Shown: positions 6,255 through 40,466 of the stretch, piece after piece
How the letters are laid out: each line of letters starts with the position of its first letter
Numbering within the stretch: position 1 is the stretch's first letter
Source of the DNA: a virus
DNA length: 64,000 bases
Virus record (IMG/VR): IMGVR_UViG_3300021142_000012
Coordinates: 1 to 64,000 of that record
Reading direction: 5' to 3' (one strand)
The notes under the pieces: generated by a model
The model's input: only the letters and a program-made list of their open reading frames with translations
Database searches by the model: none
What the model was told of the DNA's origin: nothing
Position numbers and translations under genes: made by a program

Positions 6255-6266
6255 CTTTTGTATAAT
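6238..6266 (+). promoter_or_regulatory. Consensus sigma70 promoter inside the terminator
   Basis: TTGACA (6238-6243), a 17-bp spacer and TATAAT (6261-6266) match the bacterial sigma70 consensus at every position. The start point would fall near 6273, just before the AAGGAG ribosome site of the gene at 6285. The -35 box is the terminator loop and the spacer holds its right arm and U-tract. Confidence 0.85.
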
Positions 6267-6284
6267 AGAAAAAAGGAGTATACC

Positions 6285-6530
6285 ATGAGTACACATGAAG
6301 AAGCAGTAAAAGATATTAAAAAAGCAAAAAGCGTCGTAGATGCTGAAATAGTTAAAGCTAAAAAGTTTTTCACGCATACCAGTGTTAGTATGCTTAAGAG
6401 TGGAGTTAGAATCGCCGCAGGATTAGCACTTGCAGGTGGTGGTTGGTTAGAAATGAATCCCTACATTCAAGGTGCTGGACTATTACTGATAGTAGCAGAG
6501 ATTCTAGGAATTTTTGAGGAATTAGTATGA
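6285..6530 (+). CDS. Small membrane protein with two hydrophobic segments
   Basis: 81 residues. The ATG at 6285 is chosen because AAGGAG lies 6 bp upstream and the promoter start point is near 6273; an earlier in-frame TTG would lie inside the promoter. Residues 1-35 are a charged helix; about 38-56 and 61-78 are hydrophobic and could form a hairpin in the inner membrane. It overlaps the clamp-loader gene by ATGA, which suggests coupled expression. I do not recognise the family; an early membrane effector is possible. Confidence 0.6.
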   Translation: MSTHEEAVKDIKKAKSVVDAEIVKAKKFFTHTSVSMLKSGVRIAAGLALAGGGWLEMNPYIQGAGLLLIVAEILGIFEELV

Positions 6531-26187: not shown

Positions 26188-28854
26188 ATGTCTTATGTAG
26201 ACGCATGGTTTGATCGCGAAAATGATATCATTCGAGTGGTCGAGCGTAATAAAAAACAAGAACGTGAATTCCGTGACATTCCTGTCAAGCACACGTTTTA
26301 TGTAAAAGATCCACGAGGAAAGCATCAGTCGATCTATAGCGAGCCTGTTCAACGGATCGTTTGTAAGAATACCAAAGAGCTTCGCAAAGAAATGGCTATC
26401 AATTCTGGTAAGCAATTATACGAAGCCGATATCAATCCTATTTTTGTAACACTCAGTGAAAACTATCTTAATCAAGATCCTCCTAAGCTAAACACAGCAT
26501 TTTTCGATATTGAGGTAGACTTTGATCCAGAACGTGGCTATGCGTCACCCGATGATGCATTCATGCCAATTACTGCCATTGCTGTCTACCTACAATGGAT
26601 GCAAACTATGATATGTCTAGCTGTACCTCCAAAAACATTAACTATGGAGGAAGCTAAAGAACAGGTCAAAGAATTCGATAATGTAATGCTGTATGCAACA
26701 GAAGCAGAAATGCTAGATGTGTTTTTAGATTTAATTAAAGATGCTGACGTTATTAGTGGTTGGAACTCCGAAGGGTTTGACGTACCTTATACAGTTAATC
26801 GTGTAACTAAAGCTCTAAGTAAAGATGATACTAGACGGTTTTGCCTATTTGATCAATTTCCAAAAAGACGCGAATATGAAAAATATGGTCGACAATCAGT
26901 TACCTATGATTTTGTAGGTCGTGTTCACATAGATAGTTTAGAGCTGTATCGTAAATACACCTACGAAGAACGCCATTCGTATCGATTAGATGCTATTGCC
27001 GAATATGAATTAGGGCAACGTAAGACACAGTACGAAGGCACATTGGATCAGTTATATAATAATGATTTTAAAACATTCGTTGAGTATAATATCAATGACT
27101 GCCAACTGCTCGAGGATCTCGATAAGAAACTTAAATTTATCGACCTTGCTAACACACTAGCACACGAAAACACAGTGCTACTACAGACAACAATGGGTGC
27201 GGTAGCTGTTACAGAACAAGCTATTATTAATGAAGCACATCGTAGAAATATGATTGTGCCCAATCGCACTAAGATGGATGAACGCGAAGATACTCAAGCG
27301 GCTGGAGCCTATGTTGCTCATCCTAAAGAAGGACTACAAGATTGGATCGGATCTCTAGATATTAACTCACTATATCCTAGTGCGATTAGAGCACTTAACA
27401 TGGGGCCGGAGACTATTGTAGGACAGCTTCGTCCAATCCGAACTAAAGAATTTATTGAAAATCAAATGGCTAAAAGTAAAAGTTTTGCGGCTGCTTGGGA
27501 AGGTAAGTTCGGCACAGACGAATATGAAGCTGTAATGAATCAAGAAATTGGCACAGACATTACAATTGATTGGGAAAACGGTGATAGTGATATACTAAGT
27601 GCCGCAGAAGTCTATAGACTTATATTTGAAAGTAATCAACCTTGGATGTTGAGTGCTAATGGTACTATCTTTACACACGAGACAGAAGGTATTATTCCAG
27701 GGCTACTAAAACGTTGGTATGCTGAACGTAAAGAGATGCAGGCCAAACTCAAGGAGGCTATAAATGCTGGAAATAAAATTGAAGAAGAATATTGGGATAA
27801 ACGCCAATTGGTTAAAAAGATTAACCTCAATTCGCTTTACGGCGCCATCCTCAATCCTGGCTGTCGCTTTTTTGATAAGCGTATTGGCCAATCTACAACT
27901 CTTACTGGGCGTCAAATTGCCAAACACATGGCTTCTAAAGTCAATGAAATCATCACTGGTGAATACAATCACGTCGGAAAAGCAGTCATCTACGGTGATA
28001 CAGACTCCTGTTATTTTAGCGCCTACAAAACCCTTAAGAAAGAAATAGACAGTGGTGCCATTCCTTGGACGAAGGAAACTGTTATACAACTATATGATCA
28101 AATCGGTGAAGAGGTTAATCAAACCTTTCCGCAGTTTATGTTAGATGCGTTCCATGTACCAAAGGCCCGCGGTGAAGTTATTAAAGCTGGACGAGAAATT
28201 GTAGCATCAAAAGGCTTGTTCATTACTAAGAAACGATATGCTGTTCTCTATTACGATAAGGAAGGCAAGCGTGTAGACGTAGATGGTAAACCAGGTAAGA
28301 TCAAAGCCATGGGTCTAGACCTTAAGCGCAGTGATACTCCGGAGTTTATCCAAAACTTCTTAAGTGATGTACTCGAAATGGTTCTTATGGGTAAGCCCGA
28401 ACAAGAAGTACTAGATCATATTAGCGAATTCCGTATTAGATTCAAAGCTCGCCCAGGCTGGGAAAAAGGCTCGCCAAAGCGTGCTAACAATATCACAGAA
28501 TACGAAGCTAAGGAAAAGAAACAAGGTAAAGCCAATATGCCCGGACATGTCCGTGCAAGCATCAATTGGATGACATTAAAGCGAATGTTCGATGACAAGT
28601 ATTCAATGAATATTACAGACGGACAAAAGGTTATTGTTTGTAAGCTCAAGCCCAATCCTTTAGAATTTACCTCAGTGGCGTATCCAGTAGACGAATTGAG
28701 ACTACCGCAGTGGTTCAAAGACTTACCATTTGATCATTCTGAAATGGAGCAGACTATTATTGATAATAAATTAGATAATCTTATTGGAGTACTTCATTGG
28801 GATATTACCTCAACAGAAGAAAAGAATACTTTTAATAGTTTATTTGAGTTTTAA
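26188..28854 (+). CDS. 43: DNA polymerase, family B (gp43-type)
   Basis: 888 residues, like T4 gp43 (898). Proofreading exonuclease: FFDIEVDFD (Asp 107, Glu 109), SGWNSEGFDVPY and YNINDCQLLED. Polymerase: motif A LDINSLYPS (about 390), motif B KKINLNSLYG (about 543) and motif C YGDTDS (about 603). KKRYAV follows. The C-terminus KNTFNSLFEF resembles the clamp-binding tail of RB69/T4 polymerase. It is the replicative enzyme and neighbours the clamp gene. Very similar tails end DpdA (29640) and the nuclease (33095). Confidence 0.97.
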   Translation: MSYVDAWFDRENDIIRVVERNKKQEREFRDIPVKHTFYVKDPRGKHQSIYSEPVQRIVCKNTKELRKEMAINSGKQLYEADINPIFVTLSENYLNQDPPKLNTAFFDIEVDFDPERGYASPDDAFMPITAIAVYLQWMQTMICLAVPPKTLTMEEAKEQVKEFDNVMLYATEAEMLDVFLDLIKDADVISGWNSEGFDVPYTVNRVTKALSKDDTRRFCLFDQFPKRREYEKYGRQSVTYDFVGRVHIDSLELYRKYTYEERHSYRLDAIAEYELGQRKTQYEGTLDQLYNNDFKTFVEYNINDCQLLEDLDKKLKFIDLANTLAHENTVLLQTTMGAVAVTEQAIINEAHRRNMIVPNRTKMDEREDTQAAGAYVAHPKEGLQDWIGSLDINSLYPSAIRALNMGPETIVGQLRPIRTKEFIENQMAKSKSFAAAWEGKFGTDEYEAVMNQEIGTDITIDWENGDSDILSAAEVYRLIFESNQPWMLSANGTIFTHETEGIIPGLLKRWYAERKEMQAKLKEAINAGNKIEEEYWDKRQLVKKINLNSLYGAILNPGCRFFDKRIGQSTTLTGRQIAKHMASKVNEIITGEYNHVGKAVIYGDTDSCYFSAYKTLKKEIDSGAIPWTKETVIQLYDQIGEEVNQTFPQFMLDAFHVPKARGEVIKAGREIVASKGLFITKKRYAVLYYDKEGKRVDVDGKPGKIKAMGLDLKRSDTPEFIQNFLSDVLEMVLMGKPEQEVLDHISEFRIRFKARPGWEKGSPKRANNITEYEAKEKKQGKANMPGHVRASINWMTLKRMFDDKYSMNITDGQKVIVCKLKPNPLEFTSVAYPVDELRLPQWFKDLPFDHSEMEQTIIDNKLDNLIGVLHWDITSTEEKNTFNSLFEF

Positions 28855-28859
28855 ATTGC

Positions 28860-28888
28860 TTGACTTTATCCAAAAACCTAAATATAAT
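28860..28888 (+). promoter_or_regulatory. Sigma70-type promoter of gene 45
   Basis: TTGACT (28860-28865), 17-bp spacer, TATAAT (28883-28888). The start point near 28895 makes the ATG at 28897 unusable and supports the start at 28909. Confidence 0.8.
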
Positions 28889-28908
28889 CATACAACATGG
28901 AGAAACAT

Positions 28909-29640
28909 ATGAAAGATATATTACAAGACCTAGTAGCACATACACACTCACTAGGGTTTATTCCGCTAGTTAAAGTTTCTAGTACTGCATCAGCAACTGA
29001 TATCGAAGCTATGGCCGAAGATCGTTCAGTTATTGTACAGGCTAAAACAAATAGCCCAGTAGATGAGTTCGAAGGCGTATTTGGTATGCCTAACTTAAAC
29101 AAGTTAGATATTCATTTAAAGTGTCCAGAATATAAAGAAGATGCAAAGATTAGTATTGTTACAGCAGAACGTAACGGTGAAACTATTCCAACAGGTTTAC
29201 ATTTTGTAAATGCCGCAGGCGATTTTGAAAATAACTATCGTTTTATGAATACTGAAGTTATCAATGAAAAACTTCGTTCAGTTAAGATGCGTCAAGTACC
29301 TTGGGACATTGAGTTTGAACCAACTATTGCTAGTATTCAAAAATTACGCTTTCAAGCGGCGGCACACTCGGAAGAGACAGTGTTTGAAGTTAAGACAGAC
29401 GGTACTAATTTGATATTCAGCTTTGGCGATGCGTCAACACACGCTGGCTCATTTATTTTTGCATCGAATGTTGTTGGCAAATTGAAACAAACTTGGGCAT
29501 GGCCTGTTAATCAAGTTATGGCAATCTTAGCGTTAGCTGGCGACAAAACTATGCGTATTGCAGATGCAGGTGCTATGCAAATTAGTGTAAACAGTGGTTT
29601 AGCTGAGTACAACTATATTCTTCCAGCACAAAGCAAGTAA
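28909..29640 (+). CDS. 45: Sliding clamp (gp45-like)
   Basis: 243 residues. The start at 28909 is chosen over the in-frame ATG at 28897, because GGAG lies 6 bp before it and the promoter start point is near 28895. The protein shows the repeated beta-alpha-beta style of clamps (for example FEVKTDGTNLIFSFGD and MRIADAGAMQISVNSG) without catalytic motifs. It sits between gp43 and the DpdA-like gene, as in other T4-like phages where gp45 lies near the polymerase. Sequence is far from T4 gp45, so the call leans partly on context. It would tether polymerase and, in T4, activates late transcription. Confidence 0.7.
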   Translation: MKDILQDLVAHTHSLGFIPLVKVSSTASATDIEAMAEDRSVIVQAKTNSPVDEFEGVFGMPNLNKLDIHLKCPEYKEDAKISIVTAERNGETIPTGLHFVNAAGDFENNYRFMNTEVINEKLRSVKMRQVPWDIEFEPTIASIQKLRFQAAAHSEETVFEVKTDGTNLIFSFGDASTHAGSFIFASNVVGKLKQTWAWPVNQVMAILALAGDKTMRIADAGAMQISVNSGLAEYNYILPAQSK

Positions 29641-31322
29641 TGAATAAGAATCTAACTGCTACACAAAACGACTATGCCTTCTTTTTGCCGGCAACGTCTG
29701 GATTCTATAGTACTTTCATAGGCAAACAACGCTATAGTAACTATGTAGATCCTGCACGTATTCCTGCTAGTTTTACCAACGGCGTAGAAGGTTTGAACTA
29801 TCTAGAACCCGATAAAGGTATGTTTTATTTCGATCATTGTTTGTATTCGGCAGGACATGCTAACTTAGATTTGTCTAAGCCAGATGAAACCGAAGACATG
29901 TTTCGTAATAGAGATCGTACAACCAGTTGGGTATTAGGTGACTCTGGTGGTTTCCAGATCGGTAAAGGTGTGTGGGCAGGTGAATGGAAGGATCCGACCG
30001 GTCCAGAAGTGCTGGCTAAATTACAGGATTGTATTGCTAAGGGTGTTGAATTAATCCCAGTATACGATGCTAGCGGAACACAAAAAGTAGATAAGAACGG
30101 AAATCCAAAGTTTACTAAGTTTGATCATGTTAAAGATTATACTGCTAAATTAGAAGCCGCACAAAAGAAGCGTGAACAAGTATTAGCATGGATGGATGCA
30201 CTTATGGACTATGGCATGGTACTTGATATTCCAGCATGGGTAGAACGCAGTGAAGTCGGTAAGGCGGCAACCGGTATTGAAAGTTATGATCAAGCCGTAG
30301 AAGCAACCAAATACAACAATGAATACTTTATCAAGCATCGTACAGGTGCTTGCAAGTTCTTAAATGTGCTTCAAGGCGAAACACACACCCAAGCTGAAGA
30401 CTGGTATCAGAAAATGAAAGACTTTTGTGATCCTAAAGTCTATGGCGACAAGGCTTTTAATGGTTGGGCCATGGGTGGACAGAATATGTGTGACGTAGAA
30501 TTAGTTTTGAAAAGATTAGTGGCATTACGCTTTGACGGACTCCTTAAAAAGGGTCAACATGATTGGATGCACTTCCTGGGCACCTCTAAGTTAGAGTGGG
30601 CAACTTTATTAACTGACATACAACGTGCCGTAAGGAAATATCATAATGAAAACTTTACCATCTCTTTTGATTGCGCCTCACCGTTCCTTGCAACAGCAAA
30701 CGGTCAAATCTACATCAACACTGAAACAGAGCATAACGAAAAATGGGTCTACCGTATGCAGGCTAGCGCAGACGATAAAAAGTACGCACACGACACAAGA
30801 CTGTTTAAAGATGCAGTAATACAAGACAAATGGTTTGATAAGTTTGAATCTAGTCCTATTATCGATCAAGTGCAAATAAAAGATATCTGTATCTATGCGC
30901 CCGGCGACCTAAATAAGAATAGTAAAGAAGGTAAGACTAGTTGGGATAGTTTTAGCTATGCTATTATGATGGGACATAATGTGTGGATGCATATTAATGC
31001 TGTACAAGAAGCCAATCGTCAATATGATAAAGGTGTTTCTCCTGCTATGTTGATTCAAAGACTTACAGGAAAATTATTTAAAGATGTAGTAGATGAGATA
31101 TTCTCTATCAATGATAGGACTTTAGCTCTTGAAGCTGTCAACAAGTATCATAAATTTTTTGAAACTATTATTGGTACTAGAGGTGCAACAGGCAAAAAAC
31201 TCACTAATGCACATACCTATGCAGACGAACTTGACATTCCTCGAGTTGATTATAGTGATTTGAAACCTGTAAAAAAAGAAGAACCCGTAACTAACACATT
31301 TGACAGTTTATTTGAAGTATGA
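29640..31322 (+). CDS. dpdA: DpdA/TGT-like base-exchange enzyme (7-deazaguanine insertion)
   Basis: 560 residues. DSGGFQ (Asp 101) and FDCASPFLATANG (Asp 344) match the two catalytic aspartate motifs of tRNA-guanine transglycosylases (DSGGFQ; FDCVxPTRxARNG). GWAMGG and HFLGTS fit the intervening barrel strands. The zinc-binding Cys cluster of bacterial TGT is absent. Phage TGT relatives (DpdA) swap guanine for a 7-deazaguanine base in DNA, giving resistance to restriction. FolE, QueE and a QueD-like gene nearby support this. The C-terminus NTFDSLFEV nearly repeats the polymerase tail NTFNSLFEF, suggesting docking on the sliding clamp. TAATG overlap with gene 45. Confidence 0.82.
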   Translation: MNKNLTATQNDYAFFLPATSGFYSTFIGKQRYSNYVDPARIPASFTNGVEGLNYLEPDKGMFYFDHCLYSAGHANLDLSKPDETEDMFRNRDRTTSWVLGDSGGFQIGKGVWAGEWKDPTGPEVLAKLQDCIAKGVELIPVYDASGTQKVDKNGNPKFTKFDHVKDYTAKLEAAQKKREQVLAWMDALMDYGMVLDIPAWVERSEVGKAATGIESYDQAVEATKYNNEYFIKHRTGACKFLNVLQGETHTQAEDWYQKMKDFCDPKVYGDKAFNGWAMGGQNMCDVELVLKRLVALRFDGLLKKGQHDWMHFLGTSKLEWATLLTDIQRAVRKYHNENFTISFDCASPFLATANGQIYINTETEHNEKWVYRMQASADDKKYAHDTRLFKDAVIQDKWFDKFESSPIIDQVQIKDICIYAPGDLNKNSKEGKTSWDSFSYAIMMGHNVWMHINAVQEANRQYDKGVSPAMLIQRLTGKLFKDVVDEIFSINDRTLALEAVNKYHKFFETIIGTRGATGKKLTNAHTYADELDIPRVDYSDLKPVKKEEPVTNTFDSLFEV

Positions 31323-32536
31323 AAAAACGAATAGGTATCATCGGAGTCGGTACTGCTGGCATTGTTAATCTTTCTTATTTTTTAAGTTTGTTAAGCAATG
31401 ACTACGAAGTCGTATCTATATACGATCCGTCGATACCTATTCTCGGTATTGGTGAAAGTACTAATCCCGGATTTATTAGAATACTAGAGCAGGGTACTAG
31501 ATTTTCTATTTCCGAAGATACGCACCATCTTGATAGCACATACAAATTTGGAACCCAATTTATTAATTGGCGAGAGCATGATTGGCTTAATCCATTAATT
31601 GGCGGCGGTATCGCTGTGCATTTTAATAATTTTAAATTAAAAGAATTTGCTTTTGAACGATTTGCCAAATTATGGCCAAAAAAGTTTTCTGTAATTGAAG
31701 GAACAGTTAATGAAACTATTGATAAGTTTAATAGTGTTAAGCTCATCATCGATGGAAGCGAAGAACTATTTGATTATATCATAGATTGTAGCGGATTTCC
31801 CAAGGACTATTCTACAGACTATGTTCATAGTAGTTGTAGTCTGCTAAACCATTGCTATGTACATAGTTTTGAAAAATTTGATCCTATACCCTATACAGAA
31901 CATATTGCTACCCAAAACGGTTGGATGTTCGGTATTCCGTTGCAATCTAGAAAAACATATGGCTACTTATTCAATGACACTATCACTACAGAAGACGATG
32001 CCAAACAAGATATGGCAGCTACTTTAAAAATTTCAGTTAGCGAATTAAAATTAAGAGAATACAAATTCAAACCTTATTATACTACTAGACTAGTTAATAA
32101 TAATATTATGAAGAATGGTAATCAAGCATTGTTCTTTGAACCGATTAGTGCTACTTCGATTAATCAGTATGTTAGTACCTGTCATATTTTGTTTGATTAT
32201 ATTATGGAAAATATATCTGAAGAACAGGCTAATGCACAATTTATTCACGAATCGAATGTAACTGAGGATATCATAAATTATTATTATCACGGTGGTACTA
32301 ATTTTGACAGCACATTTTGGCAAGCAGCCAAAAAAAATGCCATCAATAATCTTAAAGATAACCAACGTTTTAAAACAATCTTAGACCAAAATCAAATGGC
32401 AAATGACATCGGACTTCCATATAATGGCCCCGCCCATTTGTTCACTGCTTATAGTCTACAGATTATTGATGAAGGATTTGGCTATAATTACTTCAAAGGT
32501 TCTCCAAGACCGTTTGACAATGTAGACAAATCATAG
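31319..32536 (+). CDS. Flavin-dependent halogenase-like protein, degenerate
   Basis: 405 residues. FAD motif GVGTAG (9-14) and GIGESTNPG (43-51), the halogenase form of the second FAD loop, are clear. The segment STYKFGTQFINW carries Lys 76, where tryptophan halogenases have their catalytic Lys. But the WxWxIP signature reads GWMFGIPLQ, and the PLEST catalytic-Glu segment reads EPISATS, so the Glu is lost. It may be a monooxygenase or an inactive relative rather than a halogenase. It overlaps dpdA (ATGA); its last codons contain a promoter for the next gene. A more canonical paralogue is at 44596. Confidence 0.7.
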   Translation: MKKRIGIIGVGTAGIVNLSYFLSLLSNDYEVVSIYDPSIPILGIGESTNPGFIRILEQGTRFSISEDTHHLDSTYKFGTQFINWREHDWLNPLIGGGIAVHFNNFKLKEFAFERFAKLWPKKFSVIEGTVNETIDKFNSVKLIIDGSEELFDYIIDCSGFPKDYSTDYVHSSCSLLNHCYVHSFEKFDPIPYTEHIATQNGWMFGIPLQSRKTYGYLFNDTITTEDDAKQDMAATLKISVSELKLREYKFKPYYTTRLVNNNIMKNGNQALFFEPISATSINQYVSTCHILFDYIMENISEEQANAQFIHESNVTEDIINYYYHGGTNFDSTFWQAAKKNAINNLKDNQRFKTILDQNQMANDIGLPYNGPAHLFTAYSLQIIDEGFGYNYFKGSPRPFDNVDKS

Positions 32537-32542
32537 TATAAT
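32514..32542 (+). promoter_or_regulatory. Consensus sigma70 promoter
   Basis: TTGACA (32514-32519), 17-bp spacer, TATAAT (32537-32542), exact consensus. It overlaps the last codons of the halogenase-like gene and precedes the gene at 32571 (AAGGTAA ribosome site). Confidence 0.85.
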
Positions 32543-32570
32543 CATATATAACCAAACATTAAGGTAAAGC

Positions 32571-33098
32571 ATGAAACGTAATTATAAAACAGGAGTATCA
32601 GAACAAGTTACTTTGTTTACAGGTATAGAAATTGAACGTACCCCTGCATATGGTATGAAAACATTATTTGTAGTAGGAGTACAGGATGGCGATGTATTAG
32701 GGCATATAGCTAAAATACAAAATTGTACTCACGTATATTTCGGTGCTAATCAGAGTTTTCCAAAGCTAAAAACTAATGATGCAGCCGGTTGGAAACCTTG
32801 GGAAGATATGATTCAAAGCTGTTTGGATGCAGGATTATGGTGCACCTTAGATTTTGATGTTGCCCAAGCTGAAGGATTGCTTGAAAGTGGTTTAACCGAA
32901 TGTCGTAGATTTATTCCACAAGTTAGTGTAAAATTACCTTATCTAGCACAGTTAGGTTATAATGCTACAATTAAAATCGACGATAAAGATTTTGAAGCAA
33001 GTAATCCAGGTGTATGGTGTGTACCGATTGGTGCCATTACACAACGCAAGTACTTTACCAATTGGGATGAATATGGCAAGGATGAAATCATAGCATGA
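32571..33098 (+). CDS. Unknown protein in the DNA-modification cluster
   Basis: 175 residues. Alpha/beta in character, with MKTLFVVGVQDGD, THVYFGANQSF, LWCTLDFDVAQAEGLL and a Trp/Pro-rich end; no known motif. The two short strands each followed by a helix hint at a barrel or Rossmann-like fold. It has its own consensus promoter and overlaps (ATGA) the PD-(D/E)xK nuclease gene, with QueD-like next. It may take part in 7-deazaguanine DNA chemistry or control of the nuclease. I do not recognise the family. Confidence 0.6.
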   Translation: MKRNYKTGVSEQVTLFTGIEIERTPAYGMKTLFVVGVQDGDVLGHIAKIQNCTHVYFGANQSFPKLKTNDAAGWKPWEDMIQSCLDAGLWCTLDFDVAQAEGLLESGLTECRRFIPQVSVKLPYLAQLGYNATIKIDDKDFEASNPGVWCVPIGAITQRKYFTNWDEYGKDEIIA

Positions 33099-33688
33099 AC
33101 AACCAAATTAAACAACAAATAGAAAATCTAATATGCAAGCCCTTAATAGGCATGCCAGTTCCTACTAATCAAGGCGGTCACGCCGGAAGAGAAGTTGAAA
33201 CGATTCTAGAAAATATGGGTGTTCCGATTAAAAAAGGATCAGGTGCAGATATTACAATACAGGTAACGTTGCTCGGTATAAAATATTTTATCGAAGTAAA
33301 GACACGAGATAAAGACGCAACAAGCCCACATACAGTCGGAACTATACATACAGATAATTTGTCAGTATGCTATGAAGATTCAAATATATGGGAAAAATTG
33401 CAATATCAAATTAGAATTACTACAGAAAATGGTATAATAATTAAATCTGAATTATATGATTTTACTAGAAAACATATACAAGATAAATTTAAAGAAGCAT
33501 ATGATTATGGTATAAAGTATATTATTGCTAACGAATTTTGTTCATCTACACCAATAGATGGGCATTGGGCATATTTTGAAAGAAAGGCTGCCGAATCAAA
33601 TAGTTTTCAATACCGGTTAAGCAAAAATGATATGCCTGCAATAGAAAGAATGGCCAAGACAGTTGACAATTTATTTGAAGAACTTTAA
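33095..33688 (+). CDS. PD-(D/E)xK nuclease-like protein with clamp-binding-like tail
   Basis: 197 residues. GREVETILENMG, GADI and FIEVKTRD (about 62-70) give the E ... D ... ExK order of PD-(D/E)xK nucleases, with a spacing that recalls MutH/Sau3AI-type enzymes. The C-terminus AKTVDNLFEEL resembles the tails of gp43 and DpdA. The likely role is DNA cleavage tethered to the sliding clamp, perhaps acting on unmodified host DNA or in repair. It overlaps the unknown gene upstream (ATGA) and is followed after 1 bp by the QueD-like gene. Function inferred. Confidence 0.6.
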   Translation: MNNQIKQQIENLICKPLIGMPVPTNQGGHAGREVETILENMGVPIKKGSGADITIQVTLLGIKYFIEVKTRDKDATSPHTVGTIHTDNLSVCYEDSNIWEKLQYQIRITTENGIIIKSELYDFTRKHIQDKFKEAYDYGIKYIIANEFCSSTPIDGHWAYFERKAAESNSFQYRLSKNDMPAIERMAKTVDNLFEEL

Positions 33689-33689
33689 C

Positions 33690-34079
33690 ATGATAATTCG
33701 ACAAGATATTAGACCAAACAAAATGATCTGGGTTACCTTTCGTAAAGAAGGTATTCATCGTTATCCGGCTGCCGCTACAGATCCTAACTTGTGTACCGCA
33801 GGAGAATATGATGTTAGTTTCCTAGCTAATGCACATAGACATATATTCCATTTTAAAGTTTGGATTGGTGTAGAACATAACGATCGCGATATTGAATTTA
33901 TTCAATTTAAACGCTGGTGTGAAAGTTTGTACAATCAAGATATTTTACAGCTTGATTTTCAAAGTTGCGAAATGATGAGTGATGCATTGTATGCTCAGAT
34001 TGAAGCAAGGTACCCGGGCCGTGAGGTTTGGATTGAGGTCTCCGAAGATGGAGAAAATGGTAGTTTCATCAAATATTAA
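33690..34079 (+). CDS. queD: QueD/PTPS-like T-fold protein, divergent
   Basis: 129 residues from the ATG at 33690. FRKEGIHRYP (His 23) and ANAHRHIFHFKVWI (His 49, His 51) parallel the three zinc ligands of QueD (FEAAHRLP; LHGHSF). A Cys (35) sits between them, as in QueD. FQSCEMMSDALYAQI resembles NPTSEVLAKWIW, and the end VWIEVSEDGENGSF resembles VMVKET. The catalytic Asp-His of LDHxxLN is not seen (the region reads LYNQDILQL). If active it makes 6-carboxytetrahydropterin, the step between FolE and QueE to preQ0. Divergence leaves another pterin reaction possible. Confidence 0.5.
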   Translation: MIIRQDIRPNKMIWVTFRKEGIHRYPAAATDPNLCTAGEYDVSFLANAHRHIFHFKVWIGVEHNDRDIEFIQFKRWCESLYNQDILQLDFQSCEMMSDALYAQIEARYPGREVWIEVSEDGENGSFIKY

Positions 34080-39653: not shown

Positions 39654-40466
39654 TTGACAACATTTACAACAGAAGACTTAAAAGCAGTATTAGAAAATAA
39701 TCCTGATCTAGTTAAAGAAGCACCATATCATCCAGGATACGAGGATGCTGCCATGAACATGGGCGATAAAGGATATGAAGAAGCAAATCTTGCTGATGCT
39801 ATCCGTTTCAATATGAAGCGTGATAAGAAACGCTTTTGGGCCGGAGACAATATTAGTGAATATGTAGTTGGGCATAGAGATGAACTAATTGCTAATGCAA
39901 CTAAAGCCTTTGAAGGAGTGTTAGACGCACTCTTGATTGATAGAGAAACAGATCCAAACTCACAAGGCACAGCACGACGCTTGGCCAAGATGTATTTTAA
40001 CGAAATTATGGGAGGTCGATATGATCCAGCACCAGATTGCACAGCTTTTCCAAATGATAGCCAAGATAGATATGAAGGTATGCTTGTTGTTCGTAGCGAG
40101 TTGCGTTCTATGTGTAGCCATCACCATCAACCTGTTAGTGGTGTTGCATACATCGGAATTATTGCAGCCAATAAACTTATTGGCTTGTCTAAATATACTA
40201 GGATTGCTCAGTGGTGTGCTCGTCGTGGCACTCTTCAAGAAGAACTCTGTAACGACATCGCCCGAGAAATAATGCGGGCAACTGATTCAGAGCATGTGGG
40301 CGTGTATATTCAGGCCACGCATGGTTGCTGTGAAAATCGTGGCATCATGGCGCATTCGAGTCTGACACAGACCACTGTGCTCAAAGGTGCATTCAACACA
40401 GACCCAGGAACCAAGAAAGAGTTCATGGACAATATCAAACTTCAACAGGACTTTGCCCCAAGATGA
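39654..40466 (+). CDS. folE: GTP cyclohydrolase I
   Basis: 270 residues with a TTG start 7 bp after GGAG. Zinc ligands fit CSHHHQP (Cys 154, His 157) and HGCCENRG (Cys 225 or 226); the latter matches H-x-C-M-x-x-RG of GCYH-I. The first ~65 residues are an extension. The enzyme turns GTP into dihydroneopterin triphosphate, the first step to folate, pterins and 7-deazaguanines. Together with QueD-like, QueE and DpdA this points to preQ0-type DNA modification rather than folate supply. Own promoter at 39585. Confidence 0.88.
   Translation: MTTFTTEDLKAVLENNPDLVKEAPYHPGYEDAAMNMGDKGYEEANLADAIRFNMKRDKKRFWAGDNISEYVVGHRDELIANATKAFEGVLDALLIDRETDPNSQGTARRLAKMYFNEIMGGRYDPAPDCTAFPNDSQDRYEGMLVVRSELRSMCSHHHQPVSGVAYIGIIAANKLIGLSKYTRIAQWCARRGTLQEELCNDIAREIMRATDSEHVGVYIQATHGCCENRGIMAHSSLTQTTVLKGAFNTDPGTKKEFMDNIKLQQDFAPR

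Follow-up and report, generated by a model that had tools for sequence, protein, structure and literature searches.

The window analysed here is the first 64 kb (64,000 nucleotides) of the 108,265-bp viral contig recorded in IMG/VR as IMGVR_UViG_3300021142_000012. In it, a family B DNA polymerase, a predicted DNA base exchanger of the DpdA type and a putative nuclease end in similar short peptides, and we consider it very likely that DpdA and the nuclease use theirs to dock on the sliding clamp, in the manner of gp43, gp55 and gp33 of phage T4. Judged by these sequences, DpdA and the nuclease probably ride the replication machinery. The docking motif would comprise a hydrophobic anchor (F or L), two often acidic residues, [L/F]-F and then an acidic residue or glycine, displayed on a flexible linker. 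Through it DpdA, a base exchanger of the TGT family, would attach to a hydrophobic patch on the trimeric clamp whose gene adjoins dpdA, stay on newly replicated DNA and swap guanine for a 7-deazaguanine behind the fork, and endonucleases encoded in a variable slot nearby would dock on the same patch in the same way and be carried along with the new DNA. Support for this reading comes from the tails themselves, their conservation under linker turnover, the fold of the clamp, homology to DpdA2 with its catalytic motifs, and recurrence in independent lineages; what we infer from it is that the tails physically contact the clamp, that the enzymes are coupled to replication, and which base exactly is inserted. 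The features concerned are as follows.

26188..28854, + strand: polymerase, family B, gp43-like, 888 amino acids (Pfam DNA_pol_B 4e-39; phrog_262 4e-200; RB69, Pfu and Pol delta structures, phmmer best 4e-58)
28825..28851, + strand: polymerase C-terminal clamp-binding-like peptide NTFNSLFEF (from the sequence)
28897..29640, + strand: predicted sliding clamp, PCNA/gp45 fold, 247 amino acids (AlphaFold2, Foldseek, phrog_12062)
29640..31322, + strand: DpdA2-like DNA guanine transglycosylase, predicted, 560 amino acids, with DSGGFQ (residues 101-106) and ISFDC (Asp344) (hhalign with the DpdA2 family)
31293..31319, + strand: DpdA C-terminal clamp-binding-like peptide NTFDSLFEV (from the sequence; L and F invariant in 41/41 distinct sequences with a C-terminal motif)
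33095..33688, + strand: putative PD-(D/E)xK-type nuclease, 197 amino acids, D52...E67-V-K69, in a slot between orf175 and orf138
33656..33685, + strand: nuclease C-terminal clamp-binding-like peptide KTVDNLFEEL (from the sequence; form S[TN][YFL]xx[LI]F[EAT] in 23/25 distinct homologues)

The translated polymerase, DpdA and nuclease genes end in EEKNTFNSLFEF, EEPVTNTFDSLFEV and IERMAKTVDNLFEEL, respectively, exactly the three tails listed in the first-pass annotation; the interval it gave for them, 28820-33688, does contain dpdA and the nuclease gene and takes in the very end only of the polymerase gene. All three satisfy the sliding-clamp-peptide consensus of hydrophobic and acidic residues with LF or LY near the C-terminus. 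The polymerase tail hardly varies, as NTFN[SKNT]LF[ED]F, among some 155 polymerase orthologues from related contigs, and has the same form as KASLDFLFG of T4 gp43 and SLDFLYEAND of T4 gp55. The T4 tails of gp43, gp55 and gp33 bind gp45 and can replace one another as epitopes; their linkers differ, and they keep working when placed internally (PMC2988020). A loose regular expression for such tails proved unspecific, returning 4-12 matches per genome where 3-7 were expected; on the contig, a looser search recovered the same three tails plus one weak hydrophobic match (6258-6530). The stricter acidic pattern [FLVYMN][DENQ]x[LF][FY][DEG].{0,4}$ was therefore adopted, and among the 111 called genes of the contig it matched at the C-terminus of the polymerase, DpdA and nuclease only, with 0.12 matches expected as judged by pseudo-termini inside these proteins; as the pattern was picked after the window and T4 tails had been seen, this figure is a guide and the counts are illustrative. 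Across nine records it gave 18 matches against 1.9 expected, some genes in that scan being clipped at the ends of 20-kb pieces (for example, the ACP17 gp43, whose tail was read separately). The real test of the predicted docking tails lies in the relatives; they withstood it, and the support gained there is much stronger than the count on a single contig.

Among distinct DpdA sequences from related contigs, 72 of 74 carry the motif while the linker changes around it, although such sequence counts among relatives are not independent events; the tail is thus kept in relatives, as the clamp-docking interpretation of the first-pass annotation had called for. The motif lies at the C-terminus in 41 of the 74 and internally in 31, where it follows the last conserved domain block at a constant spacing and precedes an acidic extension; of the two that remain, one lacks the motif and one, with a broken open reading frame, is not judgeable. 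None of the 41 C-terminal copies departs from L and F, which are followed by E in 40 and by D in one; TTFDSLFE, KENNFMDLFE, LNESLFEV and LNDNLFEL are among the variants. The codons of L and F vary synonymously, several being used for Leu, linker positions reach up to 3 bits of entropy, and most DpdAs at 35-58% identity keep some version of the motif. In this the DpdA tail behaves like that of T4 gp55, a conserved hydrophobic and acidic epitope, on a linker of varying sequence and length, that is also functional at an internal position (PMC2988020). Chance, or the survival of functionless copies of one ancestral polymerase C-terminal segment, might be suspected because the three genes lie within 7.5 kb and the DNA encoding the polymerase and DpdA tails is identical at 20 of 27 bases. 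We regard this as extremely improbable: L and F are invariant despite synonymous substitution and fast linkers, the motif occupies two different places in two DpdA clades, and it recurs across different DpdA families and in nucleases that are unrelated to each other, so that the conservation data largely refute an origin by chance as well as a mere copy of the polymerase tail. An origin of the tails by frame overlap was also rejected, as dpdA shares just 4 bases with its downstream neighbour and the nuclease stop codon precedes the probable ATG of the next gene.

The nuclease assignment follows from the invariance of D52 and E67-V-K69 in an alignment of six homologues (A4), which matches the D...(E/D)xK signature, together with a weak Pfam match to NOV_C (0.0046, below the cut-off). 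A profile search of the PDB returned no match, neither to NucS nor to another nuclease of solved structure, and a single-sequence search found no relatives; an alignment query retrieved 38 related loci encoding 25 distinct proteins. The tail, typically S[TN][YFL]xx[LI]F, is present in 23 of these 25, so the nuclease tail too is conserved. All but one of the 25 (L321) are encoded in the dpdA neighbourhood, in a slot flanked by two conserved genes:

32571..33098, + strand: orf175, conserved unknown protein, left of the slot, a conserved neighbour in related loci
33690..34079, + strand: orf138, conserved unknown protein, right of the slot, a conserved neighbour (phrog_17812 1e-32; ATG 33690 likely)

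Of 109 loci, 58 have nothing in the slot and the others have a PD-(D/E)xK, HNH, 171-amino-acid or oxygenase gene, so the nuclease is an optional gene in an exchangeable slot. HNH proteins in the slot end in PLNNTLFEQSV, DLDPNMWETI or ELPGSLWEPA, and the 171-amino-acid protein, of an unrelated family, has the tail YFNLLFEPT; the 2OG-Fe(II) oxygenases have no such tail and serve as natural negative controls. Unrelated slot families, at least two of them DNA-cutting, thus share the putative dock. This turnover is also what one would see if the nuclease were an exchangeable homing-type or accessory endonuclease whose tail aids its own spread, by cutting the replicating DNA of co-infecting phages, and has no link to DpdA. 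Insertion sequence (IS) transposases, which dock on the host beta clamp by a C-terminal motif (PMC4549789), provide a parallel, and we give this possibility a chance only a little short of even. It is tempered by the distribution of the homologues, 24 of 25 of which occupy one slot of DpdA-bearing phages, a narrower range than expected of a mobile endonuclease (in a scan with one peptide pattern, not an exhaustive one). Less probable, and in our view unlikely, is that the nuclease is a clamp-docked repair or mismatch enzyme: the clamp-binding mismatch endonuclease EndoMS/NucS is a precedent (PMC9690074) and the invariant D52 and EVK would suit such a role, yet the gene is optional, can be replaced by HNH or oxygenase genes and has no profile similarity to NucS or any solved nuclease.

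The proposed receptor is encoded next to the gp43-like polymerase gene. The first-pass annotation had placed a clamp at 28909; the predicted fold bears this out, and the reading frame opens at ATG 28897, position 28909 being the second possible start (an in-frame ATG, MKDIL...). By sequence, the protein has no Pfam match and no PDB profile match and falls in phrog_12062 ("unknown function"), although the Vibrio phage 2.275.O orthologue has a further match, to phrog_223 (DNA polymerase processivity factor; 7e-5). Single-sequence folding reached a pLDDT of only 36, whereas AlphaFold2 on a 46-row alignment (A1, 46 orthologues) gave a model with pLDDT 90.7 and pTM 0.87, and in a Foldseek search of the PDB with this model all matches listed were PCNA chains (best E 4e-11, probability 1.0). 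The open reading frame 28897-29640 is therefore predicted to encode a clamp of the PCNA/gp45 fold, and phrog_12062 would gain a function as a sliding-clamp family. PA5oct protein QCG76195.1 (L163:4915-5661), annotated as "structural protein" from ESI-MS/MS, is a member of phrog_12062, the clamp family.

Cultured phages with gp45-type clamps show the same arrangement. The gene order is shared by PA5oct (L163), whose polymerase ends in AHFDSLFGW and whose DpdA has an internal SNSFNSLFDVD followed by an acidic extension. In Vibrio phage 2.275.O the polymerase ends in NNTDLFDW and DpdA in NNNDLFGW. Three T4-like phages, all with gp45, carry tailed DpdA2 proteins: SHNSLDDLFG in Moby (own gp43 SSLEDLFGW), KQQSLEELFG in X1 (SSLESLFG) and VTTLDELFE in ACP17 (PSLDDLFE). 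The strict pattern matched gp43 and DpdA2 only among the 295 genes of X1. In its residues, each DpdA tail resembles the polymerase tail of its own phage, and of the 720 permutations of this pairing only 2, one of them the true pairing, score as well or better. Together with the clamp fold and the conservation of the DpdA and nuclease tails, this recurrence in cultured T4-like phages supports the interpretation proposed in the first-pass annotation.

A comparable tail is found beside a different kind of clamp. In phage 9g and its relatives, the gene next to dpdA encodes a processivity factor of the beta type (phrog_947), in one case with a match to DNA_pol3_beta_2, and 13 of 14 sampled DpdAs of this type end in ...[L/F]F, one of them with DE after it (LFDE). 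Examples are NERLQDLFDE, RARIQELF, NEQMELF (VPv64) and TREQRLF, the residues just before being variable, and in 9g the strict pattern matched DpdA only, of 72 genes. A C-terminal QLxLF is the consensus of beta-clamp-binding enzymes (PMC4549789); QMELF of VPv64 is near it, and most other 9g-type tails fit it in part only. These sequences suggest that the dock arose more than once, fitted to the resident clamp. The DpdA of mycobacteriophage Typha has no tail, and neither PF00712 nor PF02768 was found in its record, which means little, as these models also missed the clamps of 9g and slur01. Sinorhizobium phage Phosso encodes a DpdA of the same family (L165:5425-7074) that ends in IVEGLF, a beta-clamp-like form; a DnaE-like polymerase gene lies nearby, and a beta clamp in this record is unconfirmed, with a sub-threshold PF00712 match only.

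The beta-clamp tails also bear on which partner is bound. Since sequence alone cannot tell one replisome protein from another as the ligand, the tails might bind the clamp loader, the polymerase or another hub, and recruitment would then not go via the clamp. We think this very improbable: in T4, peptides of this form bind gp45 and can replace one another (PMC2988020), the polymerase has such a peptide itself and is an unlikely receptor, and 9g-type DpdA tails come near the QLxLF beta-clamp consensus (PMC4549789), as in NEQMELF of VPv64, beside a beta-type clamp gene. With clamp docking retained as the preferred reading, we lean, with moderate confidence, towards a wider proposal: clamp docking would be a general design rule of phage 7-deazaguanine insertion, in which DpdAs of gp45-type and beta-type phages separately gained clamp-fitted tails, swappable endonucleases near dpdA share the dock, and modification, possibly also the cutting of unmodified DNA, is coupled to the fork.

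The identity of the window enzyme was reached through hhalign, as no curated model matched it: Pfam, PHROG, PDB and PADLOC searches returned no family. The nt-1 and Moby DpdA2 proteins likewise have no Pfam match, so the limit lies with the models and not with the family, and no direct match joins the nt-1 DpdA2 to the window DpdA, whose clade is too distant. Comparison of the DpdA alignment (A2) with an alignment of the DpdA2 family (A3; nt-1, KVP40, Moby and others) gave a probability of 97.1 and an E of 7e-11, and paired DSGGFQ with DSGGLQ and ISFDC with ISYDS (motifs DSGG[FL]Q and IS[FY]D); D101-Q106 and D344 are invariant among 34 sequences. For nt-1 the reference protein is VPFG_00171, selected because it lies in the preQ0 cluster and has a DSGG motif. 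The definition of DpdA2 as a family goes back to Hutinet (2019), and the nt-1 genome carries dPreQ0 (PMC6884629). The name "DpdA2-like" is justified for the window enzyme by this homology, its activity being predicted. The 9g and nt-1 enzymes share with it the membership of the TGT superfamily of DNA base exchangers and both motifs (PMC6884629); the window clade differs in having its own C-terminal extension, and no clamp docking was found described for 9g or nt-1. A further gene in the window belongs to this pathway:

39654-40466 (FolE at about 39903-40436): GTP cyclohydrolase I (FolE), 2.8e-40

FolE catalyses the first step towards preQ0.

Several observations weigh against clamp-docked modification as proposed here. 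The DpdAs of L153 and L308 have no tail, so it is not essential for every DpdA; the DpdA2 proteins of nt-1 and KVP40 also lack it, and that of pf16 is degenerate (VTLDLMCA). QueC, QueD and a radical-SAM protein (QueE) were not found in the 108-kb, possibly incomplete, contig, which yielded FolE only, so the modification activity of this phage is putative. Produced recombinantly in E. coli, 9g DpdA modifies plasmid DNA in the absence of the phage clamp (PMC6884629); the host clamp could substitute for it in that assay. In T4, the share of modification contributed by alpha-glucosyltransferase is set mostly by expression, not by clamp binding (PMC13216743), and by analogy the docking of DpdA may affect the timing more than the amount of modification. 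Separately, the nt-1 preQ0-cluster protein VPFG_00169 (L176:21416-22096) ends in KENSLANFF, like its own gp43 tail TLESFFG, and perhaps the predicted dock shifted in nt-1 from DpdA2 to this other pathway enzyme.

Clamp-bound DNA modifiers have precedents. The T4 clamp epitopes are peptides of the same type; their clients are the polymerase and late-transcription factors, whereas those proposed here are a base exchanger and endonucleases. T4 alpha-glucosyltransferase co-purifies with gp45, and beta-glucosyltransferase does not (PMC13216743, citing Sommer 2004); it resembles DpdA as a phage DNA modifier that binds its own phage's clamp, but it differs in enzyme and chemistry and ends in FDIITK, without a C-terminal tail of this form. 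An internal FYQMFDF at residues ~211-217 of the same enzyme (L167:625-1827) resembles clamp peptides and, on this likeness, could be its gp45 contact. DNMT1 with PCNA and IS transposases with the beta clamp are likewise enzymes, of DNA modification and of a mobile element, that reach replicated DNA through a short clamp motif (PMC9690074, PMC4549789), differing in that the clamps are cellular or host ones and the enzymes are others. EndoMS/NucS is an endonuclease with a clamp-binding motif (PMC9690074), but a housekeeping repair enzyme in contrast to an optional slot gene, with no sequence link found. A full-text search of the open-licence literature for DpdA with "sliding clamp" returned papers whose titles and abstracts made no link apparent, and a search of the same kind of literature for clamp-docked phage homing endonucleases found nothing direct. 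With alpha-glucosyltransferase and DNMT1 already known as clamp-docked modifiers, what is new here is DpdA and the slot endonucleases as putative clients. For DpdA, the dock would offer a simple mechanism for base exchange at the fork and for modifying large DNA stretches fast enough to evade restriction, one that can be addressed in the cultured phages 9g, Moby, X1 and PA5oct, and the tail may help, as a rule read from sequence, to recognise other clients of the replisome like the slot endonucleases.

Other genes are interspersed in this region. Between dpdA and orf175, positions 31319-32536 encode an FAD-dependent tryptophan halogenase-like protein (Pfam Trp_halogenase 2e-37); this gene occurs in 11 related loci, and other genes take its place elsewhere. 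At L111:8813-9370, the gene between dpdA and orf175 encodes a 174-amino-acid protein that is GIY-YIG-like by eye, has no family or PDB match and ends in STWGGLFDGA. In a few related contigs (L008:5504-6001, L114:7010-7573), an unknown protein of 166-188 amino acids is encoded between the clamp and dpdA; it ends in SLDGLFEKLEAK or SYDALFEKLETK and is another candidate clamp client.

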